A stretch of DNA of 63,953 bases, taken from positions 1-63,953 of IMG/VR virus record IMGVR_UViG_3300030329_001933. The stretch is one strand, 5' to 3'. This document shows, piece by piece, positions 5,036-43,802 of the stretch (positions are counted from its first letter, which is position 1; each line of letters begins with the position of its first letter). The notes beneath the pieces are model-generated. The model had not been told where the DNA came from. It searched no databases and worked only from the letters and a program-made list of their open reading frames with translations. A program made the position numbers and the translations under genes. This DNA comes from a virus.

Positions 5036-8000
5036 ATGAACGAAGAAGCATTAAAAGATGCCTACAGCTTGTTTACACAATCAGGCTACAGCGGCTCACA
5101 AGATGAGTTTTACACTTTATTATCTGACAACGCTGAAGCGTTTGCAGACTCTTATGCTTTATTTAAAGGATCTGGATATAAGGGGTCTGAAGATAATTAC
5201 AAAGAGTTATTAGGCTTAAAAAAAAAAGATTCTTCAGCATTACAAGATGCGGCTGCTCAGATGGCTTCAGGGGATACTCCATCAACATCGGATCTTTCTC
5301 AGTCTTCTTTGGAACAAGACGTTCAAGCTAGTTTAGAGGAAAGATTATCTGGGTTTAGAGACCTTCCTGAACAGGAGCAATTAAATGCTGTAAATAACGA
5401 AGCTAAAAAACCTTTCTACGAGGCTCAAGGTATTGACTACCAAGAGATGCTTAACTTTCAATCTGTACTTGACAATCAAAAGCAAGAAAAGCAGGAAGAA
5501 GAAGAGGTTAGCGAAGAGTCTAGCTTCCTATCAAATCTATACGACAAAATAACAAGTACCGAAGATTTAGAGCAGGATATGTTTACTACAGACGTAGACC
5601 TGGCTAATCAATATTTTGCTGACAACAGAGATAAAATGAGGTCAGCTAAAGCTCAATACTCTAGAGCTAGATTTGACGATATACTTAAAACGTCAAAGGA
5701 TAACCAAGAATTTGCTAAAAGAATAGAAGACGCAGACATTGACACCAATGATCTTGCAATGCCAGAACTAAATATTGATGGTCAATCTAAATCCTTTAAC
5801 GAGTGGTTAGACTATTGGATGGAGGGTGACAATGTTGAGGATCAGCAAAAAGCTATTAAAGAGCAGGAGGAGTATGATAACGCTATAAAAGAAGGTATGA
5901 GTGCCGAAGAGGCTTCTGAAAAGTTCCTCAAAACTCAGGTTCCTGATATATCTATTAATGTTCCCAAAGAGTCTGACCCCAATTACAAAGCGTTAAAGTA
6001 TGCTGACGATCTAATGAACAGACAATTAGGTTCTGGTAGTAGCAGAACCTTTGATGCTTTTGAAGGTCTTTTAGCTACTACTGTTGATTTAGGAGCAGGA
6101 TTATTAGAACAAGTTGAGAAAGTTGGGGCACTTTCTGCGTCTGCTCAGTCAGGTAGCACTATGCCTTGGGATTTGTATATGATGAAGGGTGGTCACTTTG
6201 CTAACAAGGTTAGGGATTACGCAAACGATATAAGAGAAAACACAAGAATACCTGAAGAGGGTTCTATATCTGAGGCTATATTAAATGGTAACGTTGAAGA
6301 TGCTGTGTACCAAACAGCAAGTGGCGTAGCTAATGCTATCCCTTTTACTGTTGCTGTGGCTTTAGCCGCACCTGTCGCAGGGCCTACTGGGGCTTTAGTT
6401 CTTGGTGGTGCGTCAGCAGCAGGTATGAAGTCTTTAGAGCTCAAAGAGAGGAGAAGAGTTGGTATAGAAGAGGGTACTAAAGATGCTGATATAAAGAATT
6501 GGCAAATACTTGTTAGTGAAACCGTTACAGGTGTAGCGGAAGGGTTTTTTGAGAGGTATACTCAAAGAATATTGCGAGCTGCTAAACTTGCAGGAGCCAA
6601 TAAAAATGTAGTATTTGAAAGTTACATAGAGGGTATAAAAAAGTCTATTAAACAAGAGGTTCCTAGTGAGGTGGCTACAGAGTTATCTACTTACTTTACA
6701 GATGTTGGGCTTGAGTTAGAAGAATTTGACTCAGGAGAGTTTGCAATTAGAGTAGTAGACACAAGTATTATATCATCCTTATTCGGTGGTAGTACTTATG
6801 TTTCAACCAGAGGTGCTACATCTATGGTTAATAAACTAAATATAATCAACGACAACACCTCTGTAATCTTTACTAACGAGAAAGGTGAGACAAAGGAAGT
6901 GTCTAGAGGTGAAGCTATAAACTTTGCTAAAGACCCAGAGATAGCTCAACAGATTAGAGATGGTAAGCTTAAGGTTGACTACTCTATGAATGACGCAGCT
7001 AAACAAGCTATAGAAGATTTAGTTTATGGATACACTGCCCCTGATGCTCAACAAGCTAGAGCTGAGATGTTCGAGAAGGAGAAGGTTGTATCTAATCTAT
7101 CTAGAAAAATTAATAAAGCTAAAGAAGAAGGTACTGAAATATCTAACGAGGATGTTTCTAACCTAGCTCAAGCTTTATCTGAGATGGAATCTGAAGGCAA
7201 GAAGTCTAAGTATAACGTTACTAAAAGCACTAAGGCTGCTAGAAGCGAGGCTAACAAAGTCCTTAAAGATAATAACATAGAGATAGTAGATGCTGTAAAC
7301 TCTCAAAATACATCTATATCTAACGTTACAGAAACTGTAGAGGCTACAAAGATAGACAATCAAAAGCAGTACGACTCTGTTAAGAAACAGTTAAAGGATG
7401 GTAAAGGAAAGCCAACTATAGTTCAGTCTCAAAATCAAAGTGGTGTTAGGATTGACGGAGAGGTGTCTCAAACTTCAGATATAACTCAAGGTGAGTTTAA
7501 AAATGCTTCTGTAGCTAAGAATGCTATGAAGGAGTTCGAGGCTAAGAGAGATGCTGCTAAGAGAGGGGAGATGATTGAAAGCGAATTGTTTCCTGCTAAC
7601 AATAAGTTGTTTACAAACACCAAGAAAGAAACCCTTGACGAAATACCTCAAGAGGTTATAGATAATAACGATTACCACATACTAACTTCAGAAAAAGAAG
7701 GTTTAACAGAGCAAGAAAGAGCCTCTAGAATGGAGGAGCTTAAATCTATGCTAGATGAGGCTGACGCAACTTATTATACCGTTCAGGGTGTTTATAACGG
7801 GGTTGCTGAAGAAAGCCTTGTGGTAACAGGAATAGATAACGCTACCGCTTTAAATATAGGTAATCAGTTCCAACAAGAGTCTATTTTCTCGTCTAAGGAT
7901 GGGTTAATGTTTGGTGATGGTAGTGTAGTTCCTTTAGATGGTGATGTATCAAAGGGTCCAGACGCTAGGAAAAGAGACGCTCTAACTATAATGAATGTTG

Positions 8001-11000
8001 GGGGTAGAAAATCCTCTATACATACAGGTCTTAACTGGGGTAATATGAGTTACGGTAAAAACTTTAACTCAGATAACATTCACAGGTTAGACGAGAGCGA
8101 TCCTAATTATGATAGTGAACTGTTCCAGGGATTAACTGACAGTAGAAAGAGAGCTTTAGGTTTTGCTTTTAAATTACTTAACTCTATTGGTGGCCTTAAC
8201 GTTACTATTGTTAGAAATAGTAAAGCTATGGAAGGTCAGCTTGAAGCTTTAGGTTACGACACAGCAAACAGAAACGCATCTTTCTTTAGGGGTGCTGACA
8301 AAACTATATACGTAAACCTTGAAACTGTTCGTGGCAATACTTTATTCCACGAGATAGTTCACCCAATGGTTGACTTTATTAAGAAGACTGATCCTGAGTT
8401 ATATAAGAGAATAGAGGGAGAGGTTTCTCAAGGTAAGGTTAAGAGAAGAGTGTTAAAGAATGGTCGTAAGGTAAAAGGATCTTACCTTCAGTGGGCTGAA
8501 GAAAACTACGCTGACTTATCTAAAGAAGGTCAAATAGAAGAGGCTTTTGCTGAGATGATGGGTGATGCTGCTTATGGTCACTTTAATAAGAGTCAATCTA
8601 CACTTAATAGAATTTTAGATATTGTTAGAGCTATGTTAGGTAAGCTTAACATAACTACTAATAAAGAAAACCCAGCAGCTATAAACCTAGATGAGATGTC
8701 TTTATCTGACATGAGAAAAAACTTAGCTGGTGCTTTAGTTGATGGTAGAAAGATTAACGTTGGGGGAATTGAATTTGAAGTTGGAGAGGTGAAGGTTGAT
8801 AAAGATAAGGTTAACAACTCAATTAGAACTCAGGTAGATAAATCAGAGCCTAACTCTGATCTTGGTGTTGTAAACGTAAACATACCAGACAACGTTCAAA
8901 CTCAAGAGATACGATTCCAAACTCCTGAATACTATCCAAACTTTGATATATCAAAAGTCAAAAGAGGTAGTATAAAAGAGTTTAATGGTCAGAAGGCTTT
9001 ACTTATGTTGACTGATAGATCGGCATCTGGTATGGTTGTATCTCCAACGGGTGTTAAGCATGAATTTGACGGAGGGGTGTTTTACCCTTACCAAGAAGAT
9101 ACAGGTGTTTGGGCATTCTCAGATAAGTCTGCAGCAACTAGAATGATTAACGCAGCAAAGGAGAGTGATGGTTTAGTATTCTTAACGGCTATGGCTCCAG
9201 GTTCTATTGATGGTAGCGTTAACATGTTTGATTACGTTATGAAAGAACTTGATCAAGCTATAAAAGATAAGAGAGCTACTAAGAAAGAGGTTCTAGACTT
9301 CCTTAATAAGAAGATGACTATAAAGTCTTTTGACTCTAAAGTTAAAGGTGAAGGGATAAAAACAGCTAAAGTTAAATCTGTAAAAGAGTTTAGTAATTTA
9401 GTTTTATCTATGCCTCAAGCTTTTGGTGTTAGGAAAGATATAATAAGGAAGTCTATCCAGAGTAAGATATTTGAGAAGTGGGGCGTACCTTCTATGCAGG
9501 AAATGTATGATGTTGTAAATCAAGATATTGTAAAAAACCTTAAGGGTAACCCTATAGTGTCTGCTATTAGGATAGATACAGAGGCTGGATATGTAGATTC
9601 TAGAACTGACGAAAGTATTAAAGATCACCCTACCTACCCATACGTTGTTAAAGGAGAGCCCTTAATGATATTTGACGAATCTATTGACGCTTCAGAAGTT
9701 TGGGATGAGCTCAACTTAGCTGATAAGTTTTTAATAGATTCTAAGACAGGAGAAAAACTAAGTGAAGGTACAACTCAAGCTAGAAGACAAAGAAAGATTG
9801 AGATGGCTAGACCTGTTGTTGAGATTAGAATGCAGGCTGCTGAAGTAGCAGAAGAATATGTAAATGACTTAGATCAGAAAATTAAATCTACGAGAAACTC
9901 TAAAGAATTACAAAGACTATTAGATATTAAATCTGGTTTAGCTTTTAGGTCTGGAGATTTAACAACTAAGGCTGAATATAAATTTAAAATGAGACCAGGC
10001 AGGAGCACTGGGCACTTTGGAACAGGTTTTTATTTTTTCAGCGACCTTAATAGAGCTAAGGCTTATGATGACAGAAGAGTTTCTGTTATTAACTTAAATA
10101 ATTATAATTTAGCTCCTGGTACTATTGAGCTGCACGATGCTCTTAAATTTATAAACAATACATCTTACAGCTATGACTATAATAAATACACTGTAGATAG
10201 ACAACACCTTGGTCGTATAGCTTCTATTGTAGGAGTTGAACTACCTATTGGTAAAGATTTAAATCCTTACAAAGAACTTTTTGCCCCTAAAGGTGCTAAA
10301 GCTTATGCTGAAAAGTATAATGCTTTAGTAGCAGAGTTTGGTGAGGATCTTGTTAATGAAAATTATTATAAATATATAGACTTTGAACAAAAAAGATATA
10401 GTAACGTTAATCAACTGGTTAACGATATTAACTCAAAGTTAAACGATTCAAATAATATTGATAGTCCTTCGACTCTTGTAATGAAGGCCTTAGGTTTTGA
10501 AGGTATAGATTCTAGGTACAATAAAGATACTGACAACTCAATCTATGGTACTGTAGTTTATGATATAAAATCTGATCAAATAGGTGGTATTAGAATGCAG
10601 GCTCCTCAAGTAGAAGAAGTGCAGTGGCAAAAATCTAAGATAGGTAGAGGTGATTTAGCTATCACTAATAGAAGAGAAGAGGTTAGAGAGGCTGCGCAGG
10701 ATTATTTCGATGGTAAGATAAACCAGGAGGAGTATCTGGAGATCGTTCAAGAGAATAGCCCTATTAAGCCTATAACCCAATTTATAGACCCTGCAAGCCT
10801 ACAAGATATTAAAACTGCTGTAGGATCGAAGATCGAAGGTAGATTAGACGTTCCTATAGAAGAGGGAACTAAGGTTGGTTTACGATTAGATATTCCTGCT
10901 TACACAAATAAAAATATATGGGCTATTACCGTACACGAAGATGGCAGAGGTAAAGCTATGTCTTATACAAATGTTGCTAGAATAAACAACGTTGAGTTTA

Positions 11001-14000
11001 TATCTAGTCCTAAAGTTGCTTTAGGTATAGCTAGAGGAAGATTAAGTAAGTCTACCATTGCTAGAATGCTAGGTAGCTGGAGTCCTATTGAGGGGGCTGA
11101 CGCTAAATCTAGAGGTGAGAACGCTAAACAGATTGTAGCTAATGTAATGAACGATCCTTCTTGGGTGCAAGTTGGTATGAATCCATTTAGACACTCTTAC
11201 TTTTACGATAGATTAGATGGTATGCCAGTTGTAAGTGCAGAGCAGGTTATTCAGATTGGTGGGTTAGTTTACGCTAAGAACGCTGAGAAGACTACTCCTT
11301 TTGATGAGAGATTTGAAGACGCAAGAACAGGATTAAGATTCCAAGCTCCTACATACGATATGGAGTACACACCTAACGCTTTAGTATCTTTAGCTATGTT
11401 ATCTGATAACAACAGACAACCAGAACAGTGGGTTAAGGAGATAGGTAAAGGACTTAAGGGTGCTTCAAGGGATGTTGACACCATGGGATTACTAGACCTC
11501 CTTAAAGCTTATAAAAAGGACGCTAAGGTTAAGAGTATCCCTAAAGAAATGGTAGAGAGAATTATCGCTACCAATATGGCTCAGATAGAGACTAACATCT
11601 TAGATAAATGGTTAGTCCAGTATCCTGGAGCTGCTCTTCCTGGAGGTAAAAACTACAGAGAGTTCCTTATAAATGACAAATCTCCTGAGGATATATTTAC
11701 TGCTGGTCATTATTTTGGATTACCCTACGCATCGAAAAACCTTATAGCTTCTGCTAGGGTAGATGATAGAGTTGGTCCTAATGGGGAGAAGATTCTATTT
11801 GTTCAAGAGATACAATCTGATTGGGTTCAAGGAACTAATAAAGGTGACTTCAAGACTAAGGATGAGATTGCACAATTAGAGCGTGAAAAAGATGATTTAA
11901 TCGGAAAAAACGATATTCTAAAAAACGAAATAAGGTTTATTACAAATAAGTATTATAGAGAGTTTTTTAAAAACTTACCTGATGGAAAAATAAAAAGTGC
12001 TTTTCAAGAGCTCTATGAAGAAAATAATAAAGAAGATTTAATTAGCAGAAAATTGGGCTCAAAAGCGTCAGAGATAGCACCTATTCTTGTATCTCTTAAA
12101 TCAGAGTACGATAAATTAGATAAAGAGCGAGATAGTAATATTGATAGATTTCAAGACATAAAAAGTAGTTTAAAGAGTCTTAAACCCTACCTCCCTTGGA
12201 ATCAAACAGACCTATGGGTTGGTTTAACTATTAGAAAGTTAATCAATCAAGCCTCTAAAGAGGGGTACGATCAGATAGCCTTTGTTAATGGAGAGCAATC
12301 TGATATTATTCAAGGACATAGTGATGGTAGAACAGCAGAGTTCTATAACAAGATCGTTCCTAAAAATATCAACAACGAACTTAAGAGGTTAGTTAAAGGG
12401 ATGAAGTATGGGGTTGAAAGTATAATAGATATTTCTGACTTCCAGTCACTTAAACCTGATGCCTTCTTAGAATCTAGAAGATATTCACATACCTTATTCT
12501 TATCTCCGTTAGGACCAACTACTGGAGATACTGACGTTCACACGTTTGATTTTGACGCTTTAAAACCTTACAAACCCAAGTTAAATGTTTTTAACAGCGA
12601 AGACGGAAATACATATATAAGAACTGAGTTTACAGATCCTAATACTGAAGAGTTATTTGAAAAAACTTACAATAAATTTGATGAGGGTGGAAAAGATATG
12701 TCTGACATGCATTTTTACAATTTGACAAGTGCTATTCTATTTAAGTCTATTAACGAAAGGTTTACTTTACCTAAAAAAGAATACCCTAACGCAGTAATAA
12801 ACCTAACCCCAGAGCTTAAAGCTGCCACTGATAAGGTTGGTCCACTTAGGTTTCAAGTAGCTGGAGAGAGAGCCTCTTTAAGTGAAAAGATACAGGATAA
12901 CTTGATTATTGCTAACGAGATGGAGGAGCTTAATCAAGATGATAAACTATTTATTAAAAGAGCTACAGGTTGGGAAAGAGGTGCAGATGGCAAGTGGAGA
13001 TACGAGCTAGAACCTATTAAATTTAGAGAGGACATAATATCTTTAAGTGATGGTAAGCCAGATTTTACAAAGTTTAAGCGAACAACTAAAGAACAAGAGG
13101 ATGATTGGCTTGGACCTTTCGAGGGTGATTACGTTGCAAAATTAAAAGATATAATTGACGCTAAAGACTTATTTGAAGCTTACGGAGAAAAGAAAAAGAA
13201 TCCTAACGAGAAGTCTTTTATTGGATTTTACAAAGCTGTACCTGACTTAAATGTTTTCCTTAGACCTGGCAGGTCAGAGGGTGGTTCTTATATGCCTTTA
13301 AATCAAGCAATCACAGTAGAATATACCAAGAATACTAGTAAGAAAGAAATTCTTGGAACTATAGCTCACGAAGTGCAACACCATATACAAAAGATAGAAG
13401 GTTTTAGTAAGGGTCAAACATTTACGAAACAATACTACAAAGGTAAGCCAACTAAATCTTACTTAGAGTATTTTAGAAGTGCAGGAGAGGTTGAGGCTAG
13501 AAACGTAGAGACTAGGCTATCTATGGATCCTGTTCGTAGAAGAAACACCTTACTATCTTTAACTGAAGATGTTGCAAGGGAGGATCAGATAAGACTTCAA
13601 GCCCCTCAAGAGGAAGGAGAGGCTAACGTGTACACTTCAGGTTTAGCTACTATAGCTTGGGATGTATCTAAGTTTGTTGTAGATAAAGATTATCAACTTG
13701 GTACCTACCTGTCTAACATAAAGAATAAAGAGCTTAGGTATGACGCTAGGATGTCTGACCTTATATTTAGATCTCATGGTGAACACACTAATCAGGAGAT
13801 AAAAGAAATTATGGTTAGAAGTAAGGGTGAAGTTAACGCTGAACTCTTAAAGACAAGTATGATCGTAGAAGAGGTTAAGGCAGCTAACAAAGAGGCTAAC
13901 TTATCTAGGGAAGAGGTTGATAGACTTCTACATAACCTTGAAGAGGTTAAGGCTATGGAAGATTCAGACCTTAAGGTTGCTCTAATAAAGATGAGAGAGC

Positions 14001-16309
14001 ATATTGATTCCCTAAGTAGAACCCTTATAAGAGAAGGGCTCGTTAATGGTAAAACTCAGTTTACTATAGACGAAAACCTTGGTGTTTACGTAAACAGATC
14101 GTACAAGCAATTTGAGGTTGAAGGATGGAAGCAGACTGATAACGATATTATTAGAAAAGCTAAGTCTTTCCTTTACGCAGAGATTAAAGCTCAAAACGAA
14201 AAAGATGTTGAAGCAGGTCGTAAAGAGCCTATGACTGACAAAGATATAACAGCTAAGGTTAATGCTGAGTATAAAAAACTTATATCTAAAGAAGGTTTCC
14301 GTTACGCTTCTGGTAAGTCAACTCAAAGCGATAACCTAACTATGGTTCAATCTATCTTCAAAAGAAGAAAGAATGTTCCTGTTGAAATAAGAGATCTTTG
14401 GGGAGAGATAGATAACCCTTACTACAACTACGTTACAAGCGTAAACCAAATATCTAGAACTATAGCTGCTCAAAGAATGTTTAGAGAGCTTAACTTTATT
14501 GGTGAAGGTAAGTTTATATCTAAGGACGCTACAGATTTTGCTGACAACGAGTTGTTAGGTGCTAAGTATGGCGATCTTGAAGGTATGTACGTAGATAACG
14601 AAATGTACGCAGTACTTAATAAGTCAGTTGAAAATCTAAACAACCCTGAGTGGTTGAACCTGTACTTAACAGCTGTACTCTTTAATAAGAAAATGAAGAC
14701 TGTATGGAATATAGGTACTCACGCTAAAAACATTATAGGTAACACCTCTTTTGCTACCATGAATGGTCACATAGGTTTTAATGGTGATATGTATAAAAAC
14801 ATTTCAACATCACTAAAAGCTTTTAAATCTATGAAGGAGGGTGAGTTTGCAGATCTTTACAGTGAACTTACTAGACTTGGTGTTGTATCTTCGTCTGCTT
14901 CTTTACAAGAGATTAGAGAGATAGCTAACGATATACAAATGTCTAAGTTCGATCTTACTGAGTATCTAGATGAGAATAGAGGTCCTATAAGTAAGAGAAT
15001 GGCTAAGACATCCAGGTTCTTCAAAGAGGGTGTAAAAGGCTTAGATAATATGTTAACAAAAGCCTACCAAGCTGAGGATGATATGTTTAAGATATTTGGA
15101 TTCTTATCTGAAAAGCAGAGGTATATTAAAGCTGGTATAGATCCTGTAACAGCTAAAGACATGGCTGCTAGAAACATAATAAACCTTTACCCTAACTACA
15201 ACGAGATACCAGGATTTATAAGAAAGCTAGGTAGATCTCCTGTAGTAGGATCATTCGTTGCTTTCCAGGCTGAAGCTGTTCGTAACACTAAGAACGCTGT
15301 TAAACTTGGATTTGAAGAGCTTGGTAGTAGTAACCCTAAAATAAGAAAGATAGGTGCTACTAGAGTCGCAGGTACTATATCTGTATTTGCCCTTATAGAG
15401 AGTCTTCAAATGGCTACCATACAAGCCCTTGGCGGGGCACTTGGTTTTACAGGTGGAGACGAAGAGGAGTTAGAGGATAGAGCTATTAGGCTTTTGCTCC
15501 CTGAATGGGACTCTACAGGTAAACTAGCGACAGTCGAAAGAGGCCGATTAGATAGTAGACAGGTAGAAGGTCAATCTGAACCTGATAAGTATTTTGACTA
15601 CGTAAATCTATCTAATACCTCTGGTGTTGGTTATATTAAAGATATTATGAGACTCGCTTTTACAGATATAGATTCTGAATTAGGGAAAGAAGAGTTTGAT
15701 GATACAGTAATGAATATACTAGAAGATGTGTACAAACCTTTCTTGGGAGAGGAGATGACTTTAATAGCGTTTAGAGAGGCTATTGATAATAGAGGTAAAA
15801 AGGTTTACAACCCTACGGACTCTTGGTACGAAAAGCTTGGTAAGATTATGTTATACGCAGGTAAGAAAATACAGCCTGGTATCACCAAAACAGCTTACAG
15901 AAACATAGAGTCTAGATGGGATTCAGACTCAGAGCTAGTACCTGAATACGAAACTTTAGCTGTCCTTGGTCTTAGAGTATCTAGGATAAACGTCAACAAA
16001 GGTTTAGCTATTAAGAGTAGGTTCCTTGTTAATGATATGAACGATATAGTGGGTAAGGCTACTATGAGAAACAAGATGGACATAATAAATGCTTACACTC
16101 AAAATAGTAAGTTCAATGGGTTTATAGACGAGATGGCTGATCTTTATTCTACAGCTAGACTTAACCAGGTGGCAGGTATAGATATAGAAAACATCTTAAG
16201 AAAGTCGGGTATTAGCGAGAAAATGTTAGATATTGTTAGAACTAGGTACTACAACAATTACTCAGAAGATGTAATTAATGTTGATGAAACCTACGGATTT
16301 GACAAATAA
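5036..16309 (+). CDS. Giant polyvalent protein, 3,757 aa, with two zincin motifs, ART-like and LPD-type domains
   Basis: This protein is probably injected with the DNA, acting on host targets and processing virion proteins. The N-terminus has two tandem repeats of the form YxLFxxSGY-GS (about residues 8-55). Hydrophobic Ala-rich segments lie near 430-470. A first metallopeptidase-like motif HEIVH is at 1105-1109, with an EEAFAEMM downstream. An ADP-ribosyltransferase-like block (MRPGRSTGHFGTGFYFFSD, about 1652) follows. Next is a block with EIQSDWVQG (about 2258), common in giant phage and plasmid proteins. A second zincin motif HEVQH is at 2778-2782 with GEVEARN after it, like the LPD23 type. 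A C-terminal helical region with NIGTHAKNIIGN (about 3224) is LPD38-like. Six copies of [IL]RxQ[ATV] separate blocks. The polyvalent-protein concept is established for phages and conjugative elements; activity here is inferred. Confidence 0.85.
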   Translation: MNEEALKDAYSLFTQSGYSGSQDEFYTLLSDNAEAFADSYALFKGSGYKGSEDNYKELLGLKKKDSSALQDAAAQMASGDTPSTSDLSQSSLEQDVQASLEERLSGFRDLPEQEQLNAVNNEAKKPFYEAQGIDYQEMLNFQSVLDNQKQEKQEEEEVSEESSFLSNLYDKITSTEDLEQDMFTTDVDLANQYFADNRDKMRSAKAQYSRARFDDILKTSKDNQEFAKRIEDADIDTNDLAMPELNIDGQSKSFNEWLDYWMEGDNVEDQQKAIKEQEEYDNAIKEGMSAEEASEKFLKTQVPDISINVPKESDPNYKALKYADDLMNRQLGSGSSRTFDAFEGLLATTVDLGAGLLEQVEKVGALSASAQSGSTMPWDLYMMKGGHFANKVRDYANDIRENTRIPEEGSISEAILNGNVEDAVYQTASGVANAIPFTVAVALAAPVAGPTGALVLGGASAAGMKSLELKERRRVGIEEGTKDADIKNWQILVSETVTGVAEGFFERYTQRILRAAKLAGANKNVVFESYIEGIKKSIKQEVPSEVATELSTYFTDVGLELEEFDSGEFAIRVVDTSIISSLFGGSTYVSTRGATSMVNKLNIINDNTSVIFTNEKGETKEVSRGEAINFAKDPEIAQQIRDGKLKVDYSMNDAAKQAIEDLVYGYTAPDAQQARAEMFEKEKVVSNLSRKINKAKEEGTEISNEDVSNLAQALSEMESEGKKSKYNVTKSTKAARSEANKVLKDNNIEIVDAVNSQNTSISNVTETVEATKIDNQKQYDSVKKQLKDGKGKPTIVQSQNQSGVRIDGEVSQTSDITQGEFKNASVAKNAMKEFEAKRDAAKRGEMIESELFPANNKLFTNTKKETLDEIPQEVIDNNDYHILTSEKEGLTEQERASRMEELKSMLDEADATYYTVQGVYNGVAEESLVVTGIDNATALNIGNQFQQESIFSSKDGLMFGDGSVVPLDGDVSKGPDARKRDALTIMNVGGRKSSIHTGLNWGNMSYGKNFNSDNIHRLDESDPNYDSELFQGLTDSRKRALGFAFKLLNSIGGLNVTIVRNSKAMEGQLEALGYDTANRNASFFRGADKTIYVNLETVRGNTLFHEIVHPMVDFIKKTDPELYKRIEGEVSQGKVKRRVLKNGRKVKGSYLQWAEENYADLSKEGQIEEAFAEMMGDAAYGHFNKSQSTLNRILDIVRAMLGKLNITTNKENPAAINLDEMSLSDMRKNLAGALVDGRKINVGGIEFEVGEVKVDKDKVNNSIRTQVDKSEPNSDLGVVNVNIPDNVQTQEIRFQTPEYYPNFDISKVKRGSIKEFNGQKALLMLTDRSASGMVVSPTGVKHEFDGGVFYPYQEDTGVWAFSDKSAATRMINAAKESDGLVFLTAMAPGSIDGSVNMFDYVMKELDQAIKDKRATKKEVLDFLNKKMTIKSFDSKVKGEGIKTAKVKSVKEFSNLVLSMPQAFGVRKDIIRKSIQSKIFEKWGVPSMQEMYDVVNQDIVKNLKGNPIVSAIRIDTEAGYVDSRTDESIKDHPTYPYVVKGEPLMIFDESIDASEVWDELNLADKFLIDSKTGEKLSEGTTQARRQRKIEMARPVVEIRMQAAEVAEEYVNDLDQKIKSTRNSKELQRLLDIKSGLAFRSGDLTTKAEYKFKMRPGRSTGHFGTGFYFFSDLNRAKAYDDRRVSVINLNNYNLAPGTIELHDALKFINNTSYSYDYNKYTVDRQHLGRIASIVGVELPIGKDLNPYKELFAPKGAKAYAEKYNALVAEFGEDLVNENYYKYIDFEQKRYSNVNQLVNDINSKLNDSNNIDSPSTLVMKALGFEGIDSRYNKDTDNSIYGTVVYDIKSDQIGGIRMQAPQVEEVQWQKSKIGRGDLAITNRREEVREAAQDYFDGKINQEEYLEIVQENSPIKPITQFIDPASLQDIKTAVGSKIEGRLDVPIEEGTKVGLRLDIPAYTNKNIWAITVHEDGRGKAMSYTNVARINNVEFISSPKVALGIARGRLSKSTIARMLGSWSPIEGADAKSRGENAKQIVANVMNDPSWVQVGMNPFRHSYFYDRLDGMPVVSAEQVIQIGGLVYAKNAEKTTPFDERFEDARTGLRFQAPTYDMEYTPNALVSLAMLSDNNRQPEQWVKEIGKGLKGASRDVDTMGLLDLLKAYKKDAKVKSIPKEMVERIIATNMAQIETNILDKWLVQYPGAALPGGKNYREFLINDKSPEDIFTAGHYFGLPYASKNLIASARVDDRVGPNGEKILFVQEIQSDWVQGTNKGDFKTKDEIAQLEREKDDLIGKNDILKNEIRFITNKYYREFFKNLPDGKIKSAFQELYEENNKEDLISRKLGSKASEIAPILVSLKSEYDKLDKERDSNIDRFQDIKSSLKSLKPYLPWNQTDLWVGLTIRKLINQASKEGYDQIAFVNGEQSDIIQGHSDGRTAEFYNKIVPKNINNELKRLVKGMKYGVESIIDISDFQSLKPDAFLESRRYSHTLFLSPLGPTTGDTDVHTFDFDALKPYKPKLNVFNSEDGNTYIRTEFTDPNTEELFEKTYNKFDEGGKDMSDMHFYNLTSAILFKSINERFTLPKKEYPNAVINLTPELKAATDKVGPLRFQVAGERASLSEKIQDNLIIANEMEELNQDDKLFIKRATGWERGADGKWRYELEPIKFREDIISLSDGKPDFTKFKRTTKEQEDDWLGPFEGDYVAKLKDIIDAKDLFEAYGEKKKNPNEKSFIGFYKAVPDLNVFLRPGRSEGGSYMPLNQAITVEYTKNTSKKEILGTIAHEVQHHIQKIEGFSKGQTFTKQYYKGKPTKSYLEYFRSAGEVEARNVETRLSMDPVRRRNTLLSLTEDVAREDQIRLQAPQEEGEANVYTSGLATIAWDVSKFVVDKDYQLGTYLSNIKNKELRYDARMSDLIFRSHGEHTNQEIKEIMVRSKGEVNAELLKTSMIVEEVKAANKEANLSREEVDRLLHNLEEVKAMEDSDLKVALIKMREHIDSLSRTLIREGLVNGKTQFTIDENLGVYVNRSYKQFEVEGWKQTDNDIIRKAKSFLYAEIKAQNEKDVEAGRKEPMTDKDITAKVNAEYKKLISKEGFRYASGKSTQSDNLTMVQSIFKRRKNVPVEIRDLWGEIDNPYYNYVTSVNQISRTIAAQRMFRELNFIGEGKFISKDATDFADNELLGAKYGDLEGMYVDNEMYAVLNKSVENLNNPEWLNLYLTAVLFNKKMKTVWNIGTHAKNIIGNTSFATMNGHIGFNGDMYKNISTSLKAFKSMKEGEFADLYSELTRLGVVSSSASLQEIREIANDIQMSKFDLTEYLDENRGPISKRMAKTSRFFKEGVKGLDNMLTKAYQAEDDMFKIFGFLSEKQRYIKAGIDPVTAKDMAARNIINLYPNYNEIPGFIRKLGRSPVVGSFVAFQAEAVRNTKNAVKLGFEELGSSNPKIRKIGATRVAGTISVFALIESLQMATIQALGGALGFTGGDEEELEDRAIRLLLPEWDSTGKLATVERGRLDSRQVEGQSEPDKYFDYVNLSNTSGVGYIKDIMRLAFTDIDSELGKEEFDDTVMNILEDVYKPFLGEEMTLIAFREAIDNRGKKVYNPTDSWYEKLGKIMLYAGKKIQPGITKTAYRNIESRWDSDSELVPEYETLAVLGLRVSRINVNKGLAIKSRFLVNDMNDIVGKATMRNKMDIINAYTQNSKFNGFIDEMADLYSTARLNQVAGIDIENILRKSGISEKMLDIVRTRYYNNYSEDVINVDETYGFDK

Positions 16310-34994: not shown

Positions 34995-35684
34995 ATGGCT
35001 GGAAGAAAATTTTATTCAGTAACAGTTAAACCTACAATGACAGCTTCTAAGTTAGCTGTAGCTTATGGAGATGGAGATGTGTTATTTCCATGGACAGAAG
35101 TTCCTGTAGATAGAGGAGCTAGTAGGTTAATATCAATTACCGCTGTAGTTAGGGGTACAAACGGTGCTAGACAAGAGTTTCCTATGGATTTAGTTTTTTC
35201 TAAATCAAGTTCTGAAAATTCTTTAGGAACAGAAAATGCTACAGCATCAATGTATCCTAGTAATAATATAATAGGGGGGCATAAAATTCTTGCTACCGAC
35301 TATGGCGATGGGCTAGATACATTCGCAGTAACAAATAGTTCTTCTGCAAAGCCAGATCTAGTTGTGGCTGCAGATAGCGGTGAGTCTATATATGTTGGTG
35401 GTATTGCAAATGGTGCTTTTGATTTTCAAAGTACAGTTCAAGTTGGCACAGAAACAGCTACCAATACAACTGCTGTTGTAGTTAAAACTACCTCTGCGTT
35501 AATTAATTTTGCTGCTGGAGATGTTTTGCATGATGAGGATGATCAACTTATAGGCACTATTTCAAGTGTAACAGATGCTACAAATCTTGTACTAACAGCG
35601 AACTGTGCTAATGTTAGTGCTGTAAATAAAGATTTATATAATATCAATCCAATAACCCTAATCTTTGGGTTTGAGTGTGCTTAA
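34995..35684 (+). CDS. Virion structural protein, 229 aa
   Basis: Beta-rich protein beginning MAGRKFYSVTVKPTMTASKL, with GNxIGGHKI-like loops and a C-terminal strand block (DQLIGTISSVTDATNLVLT and NINPITLIFGFE). The IGTI-SV ... LxxN-A ... INPIxLxxxFE ending recurs in phage structural proteins near lysis genes. It is likely a capsid-decoration or tail component. It is the first gene of the rightward lysis region, driven by its own promoter, and 2 bases from the holin-like gene. Confidence 0.65.
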   Translation: MAGRKFYSVTVKPTMTASKLAVAYGDGDVLFPWTEVPVDRGASRLISITAVVRGTNGARQEFPMDLVFSKSSSENSLGTENATASMYPSNNIIGGHKILATDYGDGLDTFAVTNSSSAKPDLVVAADSGESIYVGGIANGAFDFQSTVQVGTETATNTTAVVVKTTSALINFAAGDVLHDEDDQLIGTISSVTDATNLVLTANCANVSAVNKDLYNINPITLIFGFECA

Positions 35685-35686
35685 TT

Positions 35687-35899
35687 ATGGAAATTTTTAA
35701 GGATAACAATAACTGGAACGAGAAAGCTATCGTAGGGTTTATAGCGTTTACTATAATGTGCCTTATAATGATAGCTGACCTCTTAACAGGATGGGTTGGA
35801 ACAGACCTAGTAATAAACGAATTTGTATACGACTCCTTTGTTTGGGTAGTACTTGGCTGCTTTGGAATATCTGGAGTGGAAAAGTTTGCCAAAAAATGA
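35687..35899 (+). CDS. Holin-like membrane protein, 70 aa
   Basis: Starts MEIFKDNNNWNEKAIVGFIA. Two membrane helices are seen (about 14-38, AFTIMCLIMIADLL; and 46-66, FVWVVLGCFGISG), with a short charged tail FAKK. The ATG at 35687 lies 2 bases after the preceding stop, so earlier Met codons are rejected. The length and two-helix topology fit a class II holin or a related lysis regulator. The stop overlaps the next start as ATGA. Confidence 0.65.
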   Translation: MEIFKDNNNWNEKAIVGFIAFTIMCLIMIADLLTGWVGTDLVINEFVYDSFVWVVLGCFGISGVEKFAKK

Positions 35900-38277
35900 G
35901 AAAACTATTTTACTTACTAGTATTTATTACTATTAACGCATTCCCTCAAGACAGTTTATTTGTAGATTGCAATGGGACACCATCTCCTGAAAATTGGGTG
36001 GGTGATGGATACTGCGATGACGGTTCTTATTCTTGGAATGGGAACCTTATTTTTTTTGATTGCGAAGAGTTTAATTATGATGGAGGCGACTGTGAAGCAC
36101 CTTTAGAGGAGGGTGTGTATGGTTGTACAGACCCCGAAGCAGTTAACTATAACCCTTTAGCAGAGATAGATAATGGTGGTTGTGCTAACGTAGCTTGCGA
36201 TGACGGAGAAGCTAAAATGCTTTTTGAAATCACATTAGACCAATACCCTAGTGAAACAGGGTGGATACTTACAGATATATCTAACGGTCAACCTATAGCT
36301 AGCGTGACAGCAGGCGAGTACTCTTACGAACAATCAAACACTACAATACCTTATCAGTTCTGTGTTCCTGAAACAGGTGTTGAACTTATATTAAGCGATA
36401 CATACGGTGACGGTATAGCTGGTTCGTTGTGGGGAGGAACAGATGGTAACTTTGTTATACTAGCTGATTTAGAGCCTTGTGGTAGTCCTGATGTTATTTG
36501 GGAACTTCCCGATCCTAATTTTGGAAGTGCCGCTTATTCTGGTCCTATATGGATAGAGCACTGTGATATACCTATCGTTTATGGATGCACAGATAATAGC
36601 TATTTAGAGTTTAATCCTTCTGCTCAAGTTGATGATGGTAGCTGTGAGAATCTACACACGCTAGGTTGTTTAAACTGGACATCATTTAATTATAATCCAG
36701 AGGCTACGTTAAACGAAATAATCCCTACTTGTGATTATACCTTGACAATAGGAGATGCTGCAGCTGATGGCTGGGGAGAATCCTATTTAGTTGTTACGCA
36801 AGAAGACAGTATTGTAGGAATATATACTATGGGTCCTGGGTATTACTACCAAGAGTTTAGTATACAGTTAGAAACAGATAAAGCTGTCAACGTATATTAT
36901 TTTGAAGTTGGAGGTTTACAGCAACCACAAGCAGAGGTTGAGTTTCAAACAATGCATAATTCTTTTGAATTAATAAATGCAGATGATATTATAACCTTAC
37001 AAGGTGGAGTCTTTCCCTTTTCAAACAATGGTAACGGTGCTTTACAACCATTTGAACCACCATTCTGGCACGTATACAGTGCTATGCCTTACTGTGGAGA
37101 CTATTGTATTCCATCAGTATATGGTTGTTTAATTGAAGAATCTTTGAATTATAACCCTGAAGCTAATACATCTGACGATAGCTGTATAGAAATTATAGAA
37201 GGTTGTACTTCACCTTTTGCGTTTAACTATGATGATATTGCTAATACTGATGACGGTAGTTGTGTAGCTGTAATAGTAGGTTGCATGGATAACCTAGCTT
37301 GGAACTACAACGTAGACGCAAATACAGCAGACGAGTCTTGCTTATACTTTGGTTGTACTGACGAGCTAGCTCTTAACTACGATAGTACCGCTAATGTAAA
37401 TAACGATAACTGTATATATCCTATTCCAGGGTGTACAGATCCTTTTGCTTTTAATTTTGAGGTAGATGCTAACGTTAATGACGGTAGTTGCATCCCCGTT
37501 GTAATAGGATGCATGGACCCATCAATGTATAACTATAATGAACAAGCAAATACAGAAAGCGATAACTGTATTCCTTTTATATTTGGCTGTACTGATCCAA
37601 CTGCATTTAACTACGACCCCGTAGCCAATACAGATAACGAATCATGTATCCCAGTAACACCTGGTTGCACTGATCCAAACGCTTTTAATTATAACGCAGA
37701 AGCTAACACAGAAGACTTTTCTTGTATTGACATAGTTTATGGATGTACAGATTCAACTTCTTTTAATTACGACCCTTTAGCTAACACAGATAACGAAAGC
37801 TGTATAGATGTTTTAGAAGGTTGCATGGATCCTTTGGCGTTTAATTATGACGCTATATATAATACAGATGATGGAAGTTGTTTATATGATGCGGGGTGTG
37901 TAGGAGATCCTGGAGATCCTTTCTGGTTAAACGACACGTGTTATGCCTGGGTAATAATGGTGGATCCTTATTGCTGTAATAACGAGTGGGATATTAAATG
38001 TCAAGAGTTATACTGGAGCTGTTCAGAGGATAGCGATCTCAATACGGAGGAGTTATTAGAGAATAACGCTATAATTATATACCCTAACCCTACAGAGAAT
38101 ATCTTAAATATCTCTAGTAGAGAAAACGTAAAGGTTAACTTGTTTGACCTTTTAGGGAACTTAATTTTATCTACAACAGAGAGCAAAATAAATATATCTC
38201 AACTATCTAATGGAACATATATATTAAATATAGAGTACAGAGGTGAGGTTATTAATAAGAAAATAATCAAGCAATGA
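35896..38277 (+). CDS. Exported Cys-rich repeat protein with T9SS C-terminal sorting domain, 793 aa
   Basis: The start at 35896 gives a Sec signal peptide (MRKLFYLLVFITINAFPQ). Residues about 25-66 form a Lin-Notch-type module (GDGYCDD ... FNYDGGDC). Three scattered and ten tandem repeats of about 26 residues follow, with pattern GC[TM]DPxAFNYNPxANTDDGSC; two SDTYGDG/ADGWGES modules lie among the early ones. Residues about 723-793 are a type A Por sorting domain: IIIYPNPTENIL ... VNLFDLLGNLI ... ISQLSNGTYIL ... KKIIKQ. The family knowledge is that such tails send proteins through the type IX secretion system and often onto the cell surface. The protein lies between a holin-like gene and an outer-membrane barrel gene. 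Confidence 0.88.
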   Translation: MRKLFYLLVFITINAFPQDSLFVDCNGTPSPENWVGDGYCDDGSYSWNGNLIFFDCEEFNYDGGDCEAPLEEGVYGCTDPEAVNYNPLAEIDNGGCANVACDDGEAKMLFEITLDQYPSETGWILTDISNGQPIASVTAGEYSYEQSNTTIPYQFCVPETGVELILSDTYGDGIAGSLWGGTDGNFVILADLEPCGSPDVIWELPDPNFGSAAYSGPIWIEHCDIPIVYGCTDNSYLEFNPSAQVDDGSCENLHTLGCLNWTSFNYNPEATLNEIIPTCDYTLTIGDAAADGWGESYLVVTQEDSIVGIYTMGPGYYYQEFSIQLETDKAVNVYYFEVGGLQQPQAEVEFQTMHNSFELINADDIITLQGGVFPFSNNGNGALQPFEPPFWHVYSAMPYCGDYCIPSVYGCLIEESLNYNPEANTSDDSCIEIIEGCTSPFAFNYDDIANTDDGSCVAVIVGCMDNLAWNYNVDANTADESCLYFGCTDELALNYDSTANVNNDNCIYPIPGCTDPFAFNFEVDANVNDGSCIPVVIGCMDPSMYNYNEQANTESDNCIPFIFGCTDPTAFNYDPVANTDNESCIPVTPGCTDPNAFNYNAEANTEDFSCIDIVYGCTDSTSFNYDPLANTDNESCIDVLEGCMDPLAFNYDAIYNTDDGSCLYDAGCVGDPGDPFWLNDTCYAWVIMVDPYCCNNEWDIKCQELYWSCSEDSDLNTEELLENNAIIIYPNPTENILNISSRENVKVNLFDLLGNLILSTTESKINISQLSNGTYILNIEYRGEVINKKIIKQ

Positions 38278-39308
38278 AAAGGATACTATTAATATTATTG
38301 CTAATTCCTTTTTTAGGAAACGCACAAGGCGTTAAAAGTATATTTAAGTACTCTACATTTTACGCAGCAGTAAATGGTGGTACATCCTTATCTGACGATC
38401 AGGTTTGGTCTGTAACGTCAGGTACTTTAGATGAAGAAGTTATAGAGACACCGTTTGATTATACTTTCTCTCTAGGTATTAGAAAGATAAAAAGATTTGG
38501 ATACGAGAATAGAGCGAATACATTCTACAACGGTACTGAGAACTCGTACTCAGACGCAGCAACATTAGGTCGGTTGGACGGCTTTGAATATTTATTTGAG
38601 GCTGACTTCGTGAGACGGTTGGGCGTTAACTATGTAAACCAAAATCACTTTATAAGATATGTTGCAGATAGCTGGGTAGCTAAGGTAGCATACCTTGAGG
38701 ATGGATTCGCTGATATTAAATACTTTGAAGCGTCACAAAGATATAGGTTAAAAGTAAGGGATGGCAAGTTATCTTTAAACTGGGGGGCCGTTCAAAGGCT
38801 TGCCGAACCTTACGGATTTAATCCTTTAGAGGATTGGGTTCTAGATAACGGAACCCTGCATTATACTTATTTAGCCCTTCAAGAAGGGTATTCTATATCC
38901 TTAGATGGTGAGTATTTCTCTCCAGAAGGAGACCTCGTAGCAAACAGTCAAGCTGTATGGGAGGAGGTTGTTATACCACAAGTTATAAATAATTATGTAG
39001 AAAAACAAAGAAATGCTTTATCAAACATTGTAGAGTATTCTTTTGTAATGGGATTAGACTATTATCATTTTACAAAAGATTTCTGGTTTCACACTTGGGG
39101 AAATGTTATGCCGTACCATATAGACACTGATAATTTATACTCTTACCATAAGTTTAATAATGGTCAATGGATGGATTATTCTGTTGGTTTAATTTATGGT
39201 TACAGATTTAATAAAAGTTTTGGTATATTTGTGGAGGGTAAGTACAATAAGTACTGGAATAGAAAGTGGCACAACTTTAGTGTTGGTCTTAATTACGTAA
39301 TATTTTAA
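38274..39308 (+). CDS. Exported beta-barrel-like outer-membrane protein, 344 aa
   Basis: Signal peptide MKRILLILLLIPFLGNAQG. Regular amphipathic strands ending in aromatic residues follow (FDYTFSLGIRKIKRFGY, YSVGLIYGYRF, GIFVEGKYNKYW), and the protein ends NFSVGLNYVIF with a C-terminal Phe, the signature of outer-membrane barrels. Similar proteins occur in marine Bacteroidetes phages next to lysis genes. It may alter receptor exposure or outer-membrane stability. It overlaps the T9SS gene by 4 bases (ATGA), so the two are made together. Confidence 0.75.
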   Translation: MKRILLILLLIPFLGNAQGVKSIFKYSTFYAAVNGGTSLSDDQVWSVTSGTLDEEVIETPFDYTFSLGIRKIKRFGYENRANTFYNGTENSYSDAATLGRLDGFEYLFEADFVRRLGVNYVNQNHFIRYVADSWVAKVAYLEDGFADIKYFEASQRYRLKVRDGKLSLNWGAVQRLAEPYGFNPLEDWVLDNGTLHYTYLALQEGYSISLDGEYFSPEGDLVANSQAVWEEVVIPQVINNYVEKQRNALSNIVEYSFVMGLDYYHFTKDFWFHTWGNVMPYHIDTDNLYSYHKFNNGQWMDYSVGLIYGYRFNKSFGIFVEGKYNKYWNRKWHNFSVGLNYVIF

Positions 39309-39310
39309 AG

Positions 39311-39595
39311 ATGGCAAAAGAATTAAATGAAGATACTACTCTAAAGCTAAGTATAAAAACCCTAGCTGGTATAGCTGTATTAATATTTACTTTAGTTGGT
39401 ATGTGGTTTACTCTACAGGCAGATATAACAGAGGCAAAGGAGTTACCAATGCCTCCAGATCCAGAGATTACTCGAATGGAGTATGATATGAAAGATCAAT
39501 TGATTCGTCAAACTATTATGACTACTCAAGATGATGTTAAAGAAATAAAAACACAAATGCTGAGGATGGAGGATAAGATTGATCAACTAAAATAA
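39311..39595 (+). CDS. Membrane protein with coiled-coil tail (holin- or spanin-like), 94 aa
   Basis: A charged N-terminus, one membrane helix (KTLAGIAVLIFTLVGMWFTL, about 17-37), a Pro-rich linker and a helical coiled-coil tail (MKDQLIRQTIM ... MLRMEDKIDQLK). This is the layout of inner-membrane spanin-like or holin-like lysis proteins. It starts 2 bases after the barrel gene. Confidence 0.6.
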   Translation: MAKELNEDTTLKLSIKTLAGIAVLIFTLVGMWFTLQADITEAKELPMPPDPEITRMEYDMKDQLIRQTIMTTQDDVKEIKTQMLRMEDKIDQLK

Positions 39596-39599
39596 TCTT

Positions 39600-39935
39600 A
39601 TGAAAAAGTTATTATTCTTACTTCTTATCTCTACTACCGCTATATCTCAAGATTTTCCAGATGGATTAGTCGTTGTAGAGTTTAACGCTAGCTTTAATAA
39701 GTCCAACGAAGTAGAGTGGTTATCTAAGCTTACAGATTGTGAAACGCAAAGAATAGATATAACTGCAGACGCAAGGTGGTCAAAAGAATATAAGATTGTA
39801 GTTGTACCTACACTAGTTGTTTTTAATAACAACGAAGAATCAAAAAGATTTCAAGCAAACATTATGATGACTATGGAGGCTACCAGGAAAGAGGTCCAAG
39901 AGTCTCTTGATGAAATAATAATGGAAGCTTTTTAA
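39600..39935 (+). CDS. Secreted thioredoxin-fold protein without CxxC, 111 aa
   Basis: Signal peptide MKKLLFLLLISTTAISQ. The body follows a thioredoxin order: strand GLVVVEFNASF, helix, strand TQRIDITAD, helix, then VVVPTLVVFNN with the cis-Pro position and a closing helix. The normal WCxxC is replaced by SFNKSNEVEW, so it cannot be a disulfide oxidoreductase. It may be a chaperone-like or binding protein in the periplasm. Confidence 0.65.
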   Translation: MKKLLFLLLISTTAISQDFPDGLVVVEFNASFNKSNEVEWLSKLTDCETQRIDITADARWSKEYKIVVVPTLVVFNNNEESKRFQANIMMTMEATRKEVQESLDEIIMEAF

Positions 39936-39973: not shown

Positions 39974-40498
39974 ATGAAAAAAGAAAGTTTAAGTAAAGTA
40001 CAGGTAATTGTTTTATGTTTGGCAGTTGTATTTTTATTCATTGTTAGTATAAGTAAGGCTAACGCACAAACAACCTCTACATTTATAAAATGTTTAGACG
40101 GCAACGATCCTGAAGAGGTTTCGTGGAAAATCGCAAAATGTAGTGGGGAAGTATTAGTTGAAGGCGGAGCTTCATTTATGGCGAGTATGAGTTTACCTGA
40201 AAATTATCGGGTAGTAATGGAAGATAGTTATGGAGACGGATGGAGTGATAGTTTTTTATTTATAGGTGATGAGGTCTATGACTTTTACCCTAAGAAAGGT
40301 TTAGTTAAAAACAATAAATATAAAGAGGTAAATGTAGGTTGCTCTAATTCAGATCTTAAAAAGCCTATCTATTACTTGGAAGATTTGAGTTTTAACCCTA
40401 CAATGTTTTATAATCAGTTAGGGAATAGAGTATACAGTAAACCAGATACAGGGTGGTATGTAGCATCTGACGGTATTATAACAAAATTAATAGATTAA
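39974..40498 (+). CDS. Secreted protein with SYGDGWSDS motif, 174 aa
   Basis: A longer Sec signal (VQVIVLCLAVVFLFIVSIS, cleavage after ANA) is followed by a beta protein containing VVMEDSYGDGWSDSFLFIG, like the T/SYGDG modules in the T9SS protein at 35896. The C-terminus (LGNRVYSKPDTGWYVASDGI) resembles the end of sorting-tail-like domains but lacks the YPNP start, so T9SS export is not claimed. A short A/T-rich gap before it may hold its leader. Confidence 0.65.
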   Translation: MKKESLSKVQVIVLCLAVVFLFIVSISKANAQTTSTFIKCLDGNDPEEVSWKIAKCSGEVLVEGGASFMASMSLPENYRVVMEDSYGDGWSDSFLFIGDEVYDFYPKKGLVKNNKYKEVNVGCSNSDLKKPIYYLEDLSFNPTMFYNQLGNRVYSKPDTGWYVASDGIITKLID

Positions 40499-40499
40499 A

Positions 40500-40967
40500 A
40501 TGAGATTAAGTAAGAATTTTGTATTATCAGAAATAACTCGAAGTAATACAGCGAAAAGATTAGGTATAAGTAATGAGCCAACAAAGAAACATTTGGAGAG
40601 CATGCAAAGGCTTATATCTAATCTTATACAACCTATGCGTAACGAGCTTGGCCCTATTCGGATCACTAGTGGTTATCGCAGCCCGCAACTTAATCGTTCA
40701 ATTGGTGGGAGTAATAAAAGCCAACATTGTAAAGGTGAAGCTTTAGACCTCCAGTTTTGGAAGGATGGCCAGATGTGTAATAAAGAAATTTATTACTGGA
40801 TTTTAAAGTCTGGCTTAGAGTTCGATCAAATGATTAACGAGTTTGATTTTTCTTGGATACACGTATCCCTTAAGGAAAATGAGAATAGAAAAGACGTTTT
40901 AGAAGCTTATAAGGATGAAGATGGAGATACTAAGTATAGGTTTGCTCCAGATATAGCTACAATATAG
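40500..40967 (+). CDS. Peptidase M15-family endolysin, 155 aa
   Basis: The zinc-peptidase ligands are H76, D83 and H121 in SQHCKGEALDLQF and SWIHVSL, preceded by ITSGYRSPQLN, the signature of Peptidase_M15_3. It cleaves peptide cross-links in peptidoglycan at lysis. It lacks a signal peptide, so holins must release it, and the following gene is a 3TM-type holin starting at a GTG that overlaps its stop. Confidence 0.9.
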   Translation: MRLSKNFVLSEITRSNTAKRLGISNEPTKKHLESMQRLISNLIQPMRNELGPIRITSGYRSPQLNRSIGGSNKSQHCKGEALDLQFWKDGQMCNKEIYYWILKSGLEFDQMINEFDFSWIHVSLKENENRKDVLEAYKDEDGDTKYRFAPDIATI

Positions 40968-41353
40968 TGAGTAAGTTATTAGACATATTAGGTGGTGGAG
41001 TTGTAAAACAAGTCGGAGATGTTTTAGATAGTCTAACAACATCTAAGGATGAAAAGATGGCCGCTAAAAGAGCTATGGAAGAAATCCTAATGAAGGCAGA
41101 AAGCCAAGCTCAAGAGCAAGTTACAAGACGTTGGGAGGCTGATATGAAGTCAGATAACTGGCTTAGTAAAAACATTAGACCTCTAATATGTATATTTTTA
41201 ACTGCAATTTTTGTAGTTTTGTCAGTATTTGACGGGAATGTAGGAGGTTTTGTGATTCAAGAGAGTTATATTCCTATTTATCAAACGTTATTAATAACAG
41301 TATATGGGGCTTACTTCGCAGGTAGGTCTATAGAGAAAATAAAGAAAAAGTAA
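40967..41353 (+). CDS. Three-helix holin-type protein (3TM family), 128 aa
   Basis: GTG start overlapping the endolysin stop. An amphipathic N-terminal helical region with Ala/Glu/Lys (ESQAQEQVTRRWEADMKSDN) precedes the characteristic W-LSKNIRPL block and membrane helices (LICIFLTAIFVVLSVF and LLITVYGAYFAG), ending in IEKIKKK. It matches the holin-of-3TM superfamily. It would form the lesion that lets the M15 enzyme reach the wall. Confidence 0.8.
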   Translation: MSKLLDILGGGVVKQVGDVLDSLTTSKDEKMAAKRAMEEILMKAESQAQEQVTRRWEADMKSDNWLSKNIRPLICIFLTAIFVVLSVFDGNVGGFVIQESYIPIYQTLLITVYGAYFAGRSIEKIKKK

Positions 41354-43232: not shown

Positions 43233-43802
43233 ATGAAGCCAATTAAAGATGTCTACTGGATAGAGGTAGAAAAAGAAACAGAAGATACTATAATGTTAAA
43301 CGGAAAAGAGTTGTATAGAGATACCTCTTATGACCCTATGAAGTTAGCGAGACAATATGGTACGGTGTATAAGACACCAATGCAAGACACTAAAGAGACG
43401 GGAATACAGGAGGGTGATAAGGTTTGGTTTCACCATTTTATAGCTACCGATACAAACCTTGTAAAACATGCTGATAAAGATAATATATATCAAGCCTTTG
43501 CAGAGCAGGTATATCTTATTAAGAGAGATGAAGAGTATATTCCTGTAGGGGTTTGGAACTTTATGGAGCAGGAGATGAAAGATCCAGAGCAGTCTGAATC
43601 TGGAATATTTTTAGAAACTTCAGCCTCTGAAGTAGAGCTTCATGGAAAGGCAGTTATTCTAAATGACTGGATGAAAGATCAAGGAGTTAGTGAGGGAGAT
43701 AGGGTAATGTGGAGTGAGAACTCTGAGTACGATATGGATATAGATGGAAAGAAACTTCTTCGTATGCGTAACTTTGATGTTTTAGCTGTCTATGAAGGGT
43801 AA
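43233..43802 (+). CDS. Tandem GroES-like (co-chaperonin) protein, 189 aa
   Basis: Two GroES-type blocks are seen. The first (about 43-105) has GTVYKTP ... GIQEGDKVWFHHF. The second (about 137-189) has GKAVILND ... GVSEGDRVMW, a loop, GKKLLRMRNFDVLAVYEG. The GD-V motif and the DVLAV end are GroES marks. A fused pair is not the normal 97-residue single domain. It sits just before the terminase genes, so helping host GroEL fold the capsid protein is a good guess, as with T4 gp31. Confidence 0.8.
   Translation: MKPIKDVYWIEVEKETEDTIMLNGKELYRDTSYDPMKLARQYGTVYKTPMQDTKETGIQEGDKVWFHHFIATDTNLVKHADKDNIYQAFAEQVYLIKRDEEYIPVGVWNFMEQEMKDPEQSESGIFLETSASEVELHGKAVILNDWMKDQGVSEGDRVMWSENSEYDMDIDGKKLLRMRNFDVLAVYEG

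Follow-up and report, generated by a model that had tools for sequence, protein, structure and literature searches.

The locus described here lies in a virus record from IMG/VR; this record, 63,953 bases long and linear at its ends, is referred to as a whole as the window. Terminase, portal, and virion structural genes, assigned with PHROG support, share this record with the gene of primary interest, which bears out its preliminary description as a phage gene. The terminase shares 36–47% identity with its counterparts in Maribacter phage Panino, MW202828 (Manatee Spring), and the elemo phages of Flavobacterium, and the gene order M15 endolysin, GroES, terminase, portal is common to the window and these relatives; the annotation of the M15 protein is endolysin in Panino but carboxypeptidase in elemo. 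The GroES-like co-chaperonin gene of the window (43233–43802) stands near the terminase, as in elemo and Panino, and an open reading frame (ORF) of 3757 aa at 5036–16309 is without any PHROG match. The late strand block, which comprises the lysis and structural genes, also contains a gene for a predicted cargo protein of the type IX secretion system (T9SS). The genes and features of this region are the following:

35675..35899, plus strand: TM74, a 74-aa protein with two transmembrane-like stretches (two hydrophobic windows), adjoining the cargo gene in most related loci.
35896..38277, plus strand: predicted T9SS cargo of 793 aa, with a signal-like start, a Cys-rich N-terminal part, 13 Cys repeats, a DPYCC..WD module, and a type A sorting domain.
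37123..37884, plus strand: ten tandem 26-residue GC..NY..C repeats of the cargo (residues 410–662, with one spacing of 24).
38077..38274, plus strand: type A T9SS sorting domain (Por_Secre_tail) of the cargo (residues 728–793), matched by TIGR04183, PF18962, and fold.
38274..39308, plus strand: OMP344, a putative outer-membrane β-barrel with a signal-like start, overlapping the cargo stop (ATGA).
39311..39595, plus strand: TM94, with a single N-terminal transmembrane stretch followed by a coiled-coil-like part.
39600..39935, plus strand: Trx111, a predicted exported thioredoxin-like protein lacking CxxC (weak thioredoxin match; alignment A3).
39974..40498, plus strand: mini-cargo, a small, predicted exported D.YGDG protein that has a hydrophobic stretch at its N-terminus and a short tail (DxLGR..DG).
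40500..40967, plus strand: endolysin, M15 peptidase (Pfam PF08291, phrog_894).
40967..41353, plus strand: holin with three transmembrane stretches (GTA_holin_3TM, phrog_3427).

The cargo gene is read from the ATG at 35896 to the stop codon at 38275–38277. A longer mechanical ORF starts at 35791; the ATG at 35896 overlaps the stop codon of the upstream 74-aa gene as ATGA, and the cargo gene overlaps both of its neighbours in this manner. The gene had been placed between lysis genes, and one side of this placement stands, since the M15 endolysin and the holin follow approximately 2.2 kb downstream; the other side does not, since TM74 matches no holin family. The similarity of TM74 to TssN was below the Pfam cut-off, and this assignment was rejected. 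On visual inspection, and from its conservation in homologues, the N-terminus of the cargo resembles a signal peptide with a typical start. The ten tandem Cys repeats reported previously were seen again, within a total of 13; shuffled bodies contain an average of 0.025. The Notch-like module of the preliminary description is a resemblance of cysteine patterns noted by eye, and no Pfam Notch (Notch/LNR) match was found in the cargo at E 0.1. Furthermore, Pfam yielded no domain of known ligand in the cargo of the window, and no receptor-binding domain was identified. The AlphaFold2 model of the cargo, based on 44 sequences, has a mean pLDDT of 75.5 and an overall pTM of only 0.37.

The complete type A Por tail claimed for the C-terminus was confirmed by a TIGR04183 search, which matched residues 728–793 over the whole model (1–72; E 3e-12, 46.4 bits, cut-off 23). 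Pfam PF18962 matches residues 728–791 (E 7.9e-13, 48.9 bits, cut-off 27), and this is the only Por tail within the record. The modelled tail, with a confidence of about 76–89 across its blocks, has its best PDB match in 8glk_D (TMt 0.81, 1.6 Å, 30% identity), the tail of the T9SS substrate NucA within the translocon complex; further fold matches include the tails of RgpB and mirolase and other translocon-bound tails. 8glk_D was again the best match in a sequence-only search of the PDB with the cargo (E 0.056). The tail family and fold are thus the same as those of the bacterial type A cargo proteins NucA, RgpB, and mirolase, whereas the protein of the window is phage-encoded, has a body that is not an enzyme, and lies in a phage late block. 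Por_Secre_tail is matched in all 44 divergent members of alignment A4 (the short-tailed L031, L032, L035, and L042 stand outside those 44), and nearly all complete homologues combine a signal-like start with a sorting tail at the C-terminus. Judged by these ends, export of the cargo by the host T9SS is very probable. It could instead be a component of the virion, its bacterial-looking ends being incidental, and a protein of the Synechococcus phage S-CAM3 with the annotation virion structural does contain similar Cys repeats (L129, record 36382–37932). This is very unlikely, however: the signal-like start and the complete sorting tail are retained across the family, and the gene lies outside the structural block, beside exported proteins. 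Among the functions first listed for the protein, virion decoration is the least likely.

Comparison with close homologues indicates that the tail has its own history. The cargo of the window is 74–76% identical to those of L006, L061, and L072 in the body and 30–34% identical in the tail, and the tails of these three are mutually 71–83% identical. On these identities, the tail of the window is one that was swapped for another of the same kind and is foreign to its body. That one such tail was exchanged for another speaks for retention of the sorting function itself. In the cargo of L031, L032, L035, L042, L182, L184, L186, L201, L205, L206, and L211, a short tail (DxLGRp...NKLLxYIYxDGTVEKK) replaces the Por tail and is possibly a reduced or different sorting signal.

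The neighbouring OMP344 is, according to its predicted structure, a putative phage-specific outer-membrane β-barrel. Its alignment (A1) comprises 32 members with 69% mean column identity, and in the model (pLDDT 71.6, pTM 0.62) long strands abound beyond the signal-like start. The best structural matches in the PDB are outer-membrane barrels of a generic kind, with TM to the query of 0.34 or less, and the best viral structural match is the unnamed protein A0A516LKJ4 (TM 0.67, 23% identity); no sequence match was found in the PDB. At E 0.1, none of the 32 members matched an NCBIfam model, and the OMP344 of the window has no Pfam match. An assignment to PorV or PorP/SprF was considered and is not supported, the family models being unmatched. 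No credible relative of OMP344, of the divergent barrels of L040, L029, L158, and L185, or of TM94 was found among 50,697 phage records, and the terminase relatives elemo, Panino, and MW202828 carry neither a Por tail nor a barrel. In bacteria, a cargo gene beside an outer-membrane barrel gene is familiar from SprB with SprF and from PorP–SprF partners. The window differs from SprB/SprF in having a type A rather than a type B tail and in the lack of NCBIfam matches for its barrel. The Trx111 family is tightly linked to TM94.

The association of cargo and barrel extends far beyond the window. A scan of IMG/VR for close relatives yielded 43 loci, and in related loci the cargo occurs with OMP344, TM94, the thioredoxin-like gene, and usually TM74, beside the M15 endolysin and holin. 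The terminase of the phages that carry this cassette is near-identical to that of the window, 43–48% identical to it, or undetected in the locus. The OMP344 profile detected at least 586 IMG/VR loci, and a search with TM94 at least 587. Among the best 80 of the OMP344 loci, which, as in all our 80-locus samples, are those most similar to the query and not a random draw, a Por-tail ORF lies within 6 kb of the barrel in 75, always on the same strand and adjacent in 69; in the remaining five, the barrel is within 0.8 kb of a contig end. Tail, barrel, and thioredoxin-like gene were found together in 51 of 75 further loci, many of which end at a contig edge; seven of the 75 carry a cargo with a short tail missed by the Por profile, and five (L158, L185, L188, L191, and L192) have the barrel without a large cargo. 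A small D.YGDG protein lies between the thioredoxin-like gene and M15 in L185, L191, and L192. Relatives of the mini-cargo of the window are found at the same place in L185, L191, L192, and L285, and a protein of this kind (L185:8640-9179) can stand where the large cargo is absent. TIGR04183 is matched in 39 of 43 larger module records, nearly always once. A contractile-tail sheath gene is present in 8 of 19 module records, chosen mostly for a weak or missing terminase match, and thus the module crosses phage types. Judged by gene content, the cargo is part of an accessory module with a phage-specific barrel that occurs in several phage lineages.

A further sample was anchored on the terminase, so that its loci were not chosen by the module, and comprises 27 loci in which the upstream sequence extends for 8.2 kb or more. 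Cargo, barrel, TM94, and the thioredoxin-like gene are all present in 18 of these 27, which are mutually related and do not count independent events. One locus has the barrel, TM94, the thioredoxin-like gene, and a 184-aa mini-cargo, and eight have neither barrel nor cargo: four retain only TM94 and the thioredoxin-like gene, two near-identical loci only TM94, and two none of the four genes. The M15 endolysin and the holin are retained in all nine exceptions. This pattern describes the barrel and the surface cargo as an accessory unit, jointly present or absent, in a constant lysis locus. It also bears on a proposal in which barrel and cargo, together with TM94 and the thioredoxin-like protein, would open the outer membrane when the cell lyses, as a functional counterpart of spanins. 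The set adjoins the M15 endolysin and holin in most loci, the barrel of L218 is directly beside M15, and TM94 resembles inner spanins in its single transmembrane stretch and its coiled-coil-like part. Such a role is nevertheless improbable, as barrel and cargo are not kept wherever the endolysin and holin are kept: close terminase relatives retain the latter pair without barrel or cargo (the 8 of 27 that lack both), including the two without all four genes. The loss pattern indicates that lysis does not depend on barrel or cargo. It is possible that TM94 and the thioredoxin-like protein alone act as lysis helpers.

The two main components differ in their apparent origin. Of 119 Flavobacteriales genomes, 98 encode proteins that match the cargo, chiefly in its repeats. 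OMP344 was found in 2 of 396 Flavobacteriales genomes, in one case on a MAG contig carrying the module and in the other beside M15, TM94, and the thioredoxin-like gene. Judged by these matches, the cargo is host-like and the barrel is phage-specific. Both MAGs with module contigs encode a full-length SprA, and one has 42 Por tails and the other 15, with the qualification that phage contigs are often mis-binned. Phages with a related terminase infect flavobacteria. The window is considered to represent a marine virus with a putative host among Bacteroidota. The resemblance of the body to host repeat proteins would also fit an artefact of assembly or the chance capture of a host gene, in either case with no role for the phage. 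This explanation is barely credible, as the same arrangement recurs in dozens of contigs and close pairs have dN < dS in both tail and body, a comparison that is weakly informative. The median tail dN/dS over all pairs (0.57) was set aside because it mixes saturated and swapped-tail pairs.

The best explanation overall, held at somewhat less than even confidence, is that a T9SS-exported cargo and its barrel form a unit that masks the surface of infected cells and their debris. The cargo would be made in the phage late gene block, use Sec to cross the inner membrane and the host T9SS to cross the outer one, and stay on or near the cell surface. Cargo and OMP344 would act as one unit, probably helped by TM94 and the thioredoxin-like protein, and this unit would be an accessory, exchangeable cassette adjoining the lysis genes. 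From gene linkage, a functional partnership of cargo and OMP344 is fairly probable. The occurrence of the barrel without a large cargo in L158 and L185 counts against the explanation as a whole. The likeliest task of the unit would be the remodelling or masking of the surfaces of infected cells and of their debris, leading to superinfection exclusion and sparing progeny wasted adsorption. Receptor masking, on infected cells as on debris, is itself a possibility short of likely, drawn from analogy with Llp of phage T5 and from the suggestion made for Cryophage. T5 Llp is an outer-membrane phage protein that keeps phage from adsorbing to infected cells and to debris (PMC9586334). The likeness is an analogy of role only: Llp is a small lipoprotein, is expressed early, works without T9SS, and has no sequence relation to the proteins described here. 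The late position of the cassette counts against masking, as it is atypical of superinfection exclusion, which acts early in many phages (PMC9586334).

The same exported protein may instead be adhesive, its N-terminal part and repeats binding glycans, particles, or neighbouring cells, so that aggregation keeps progeny near new hosts. The N-terminal part and the repeat number differ widely among cargo homologues, host proteins with similar repeats are large and repeat-rich, and matches to MAM, AMPK1_CBM, or TSP3_bac occur in single members; the homologues with MAM or CBM-like domains make this role a serious rival to masking. It is nonetheless rather unlikely, as each of these additional domains is found in only 1–2 of the 44 members and the protein of the window has no domain of known ligand. 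On a broader reading than masking, many uncultivated marine Bacteroidota phages might share an exchangeable two-part surface system, in which a T9SS cargo is received, anchored, or positioned by a phage-specific barrel, such that the phage would bring its own partner to the secretion system of the host; this wider scheme is conceivable and is put forward tentatively. The distribution of the module suggests that many viruses of Bacteroidota may restructure the host cell surface at a late stage of infection.

The idea of a phage T9SS cargo, previously presented as new for this locus, has precedents. In the available text on Cryophage, T9SS cargo genes are described, hijacking of the host T9SS is proposed, and superinfection exclusion is suggested (Bellas et al., 2020; PMC7468147). 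As in the window, type A sorting domains are borne by phage genes, there within the flexible part of the genome; unlike in the window, the cargo proteins are an endoglucanase, a GH39 protein, and a PA14 protein, and that text mentions no linked outer-membrane barrel (PMC7468147). In crAss-BACON cluster 2 phages, T9SS sorting-domain proteins are encoded upstream of head genes (de Jonge et al., 2019; PMC6949934); these differ in being BACON-containing proteins, and the portion of the article available describes no barrel module (PMC6949934). What appears new is the pairing of the cargo with a phage-specific barrel, usually with TM94 and a thioredoxin-like protein lacking CxxC, beside the endolysin and holin: this linkage, its scale, and the tail exchange were not found in the part of the literature searched. 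If the proposal holds, phages would display their own proteins through a secretion system particular to Bacteroidota and their near relatives, and would do so in at least hundreds of marine virus contigs, from phages with different tails. Hundreds of unannotated phage proteins would gain a testable role, a natural set of T9SS tails exchanged on a retained body would become available, and attention would be drawn to a phage-specific outer-membrane protein family with no named relative. Finally, the 642-kb uncultured phage LR756502 (L128), whose record contains no OMP344, encodes at 7716–8276 a protein of 186 aa whose start is signal-like and whose Por tail scores above the cut-off (49.1 bits), an unrelated second phage case.
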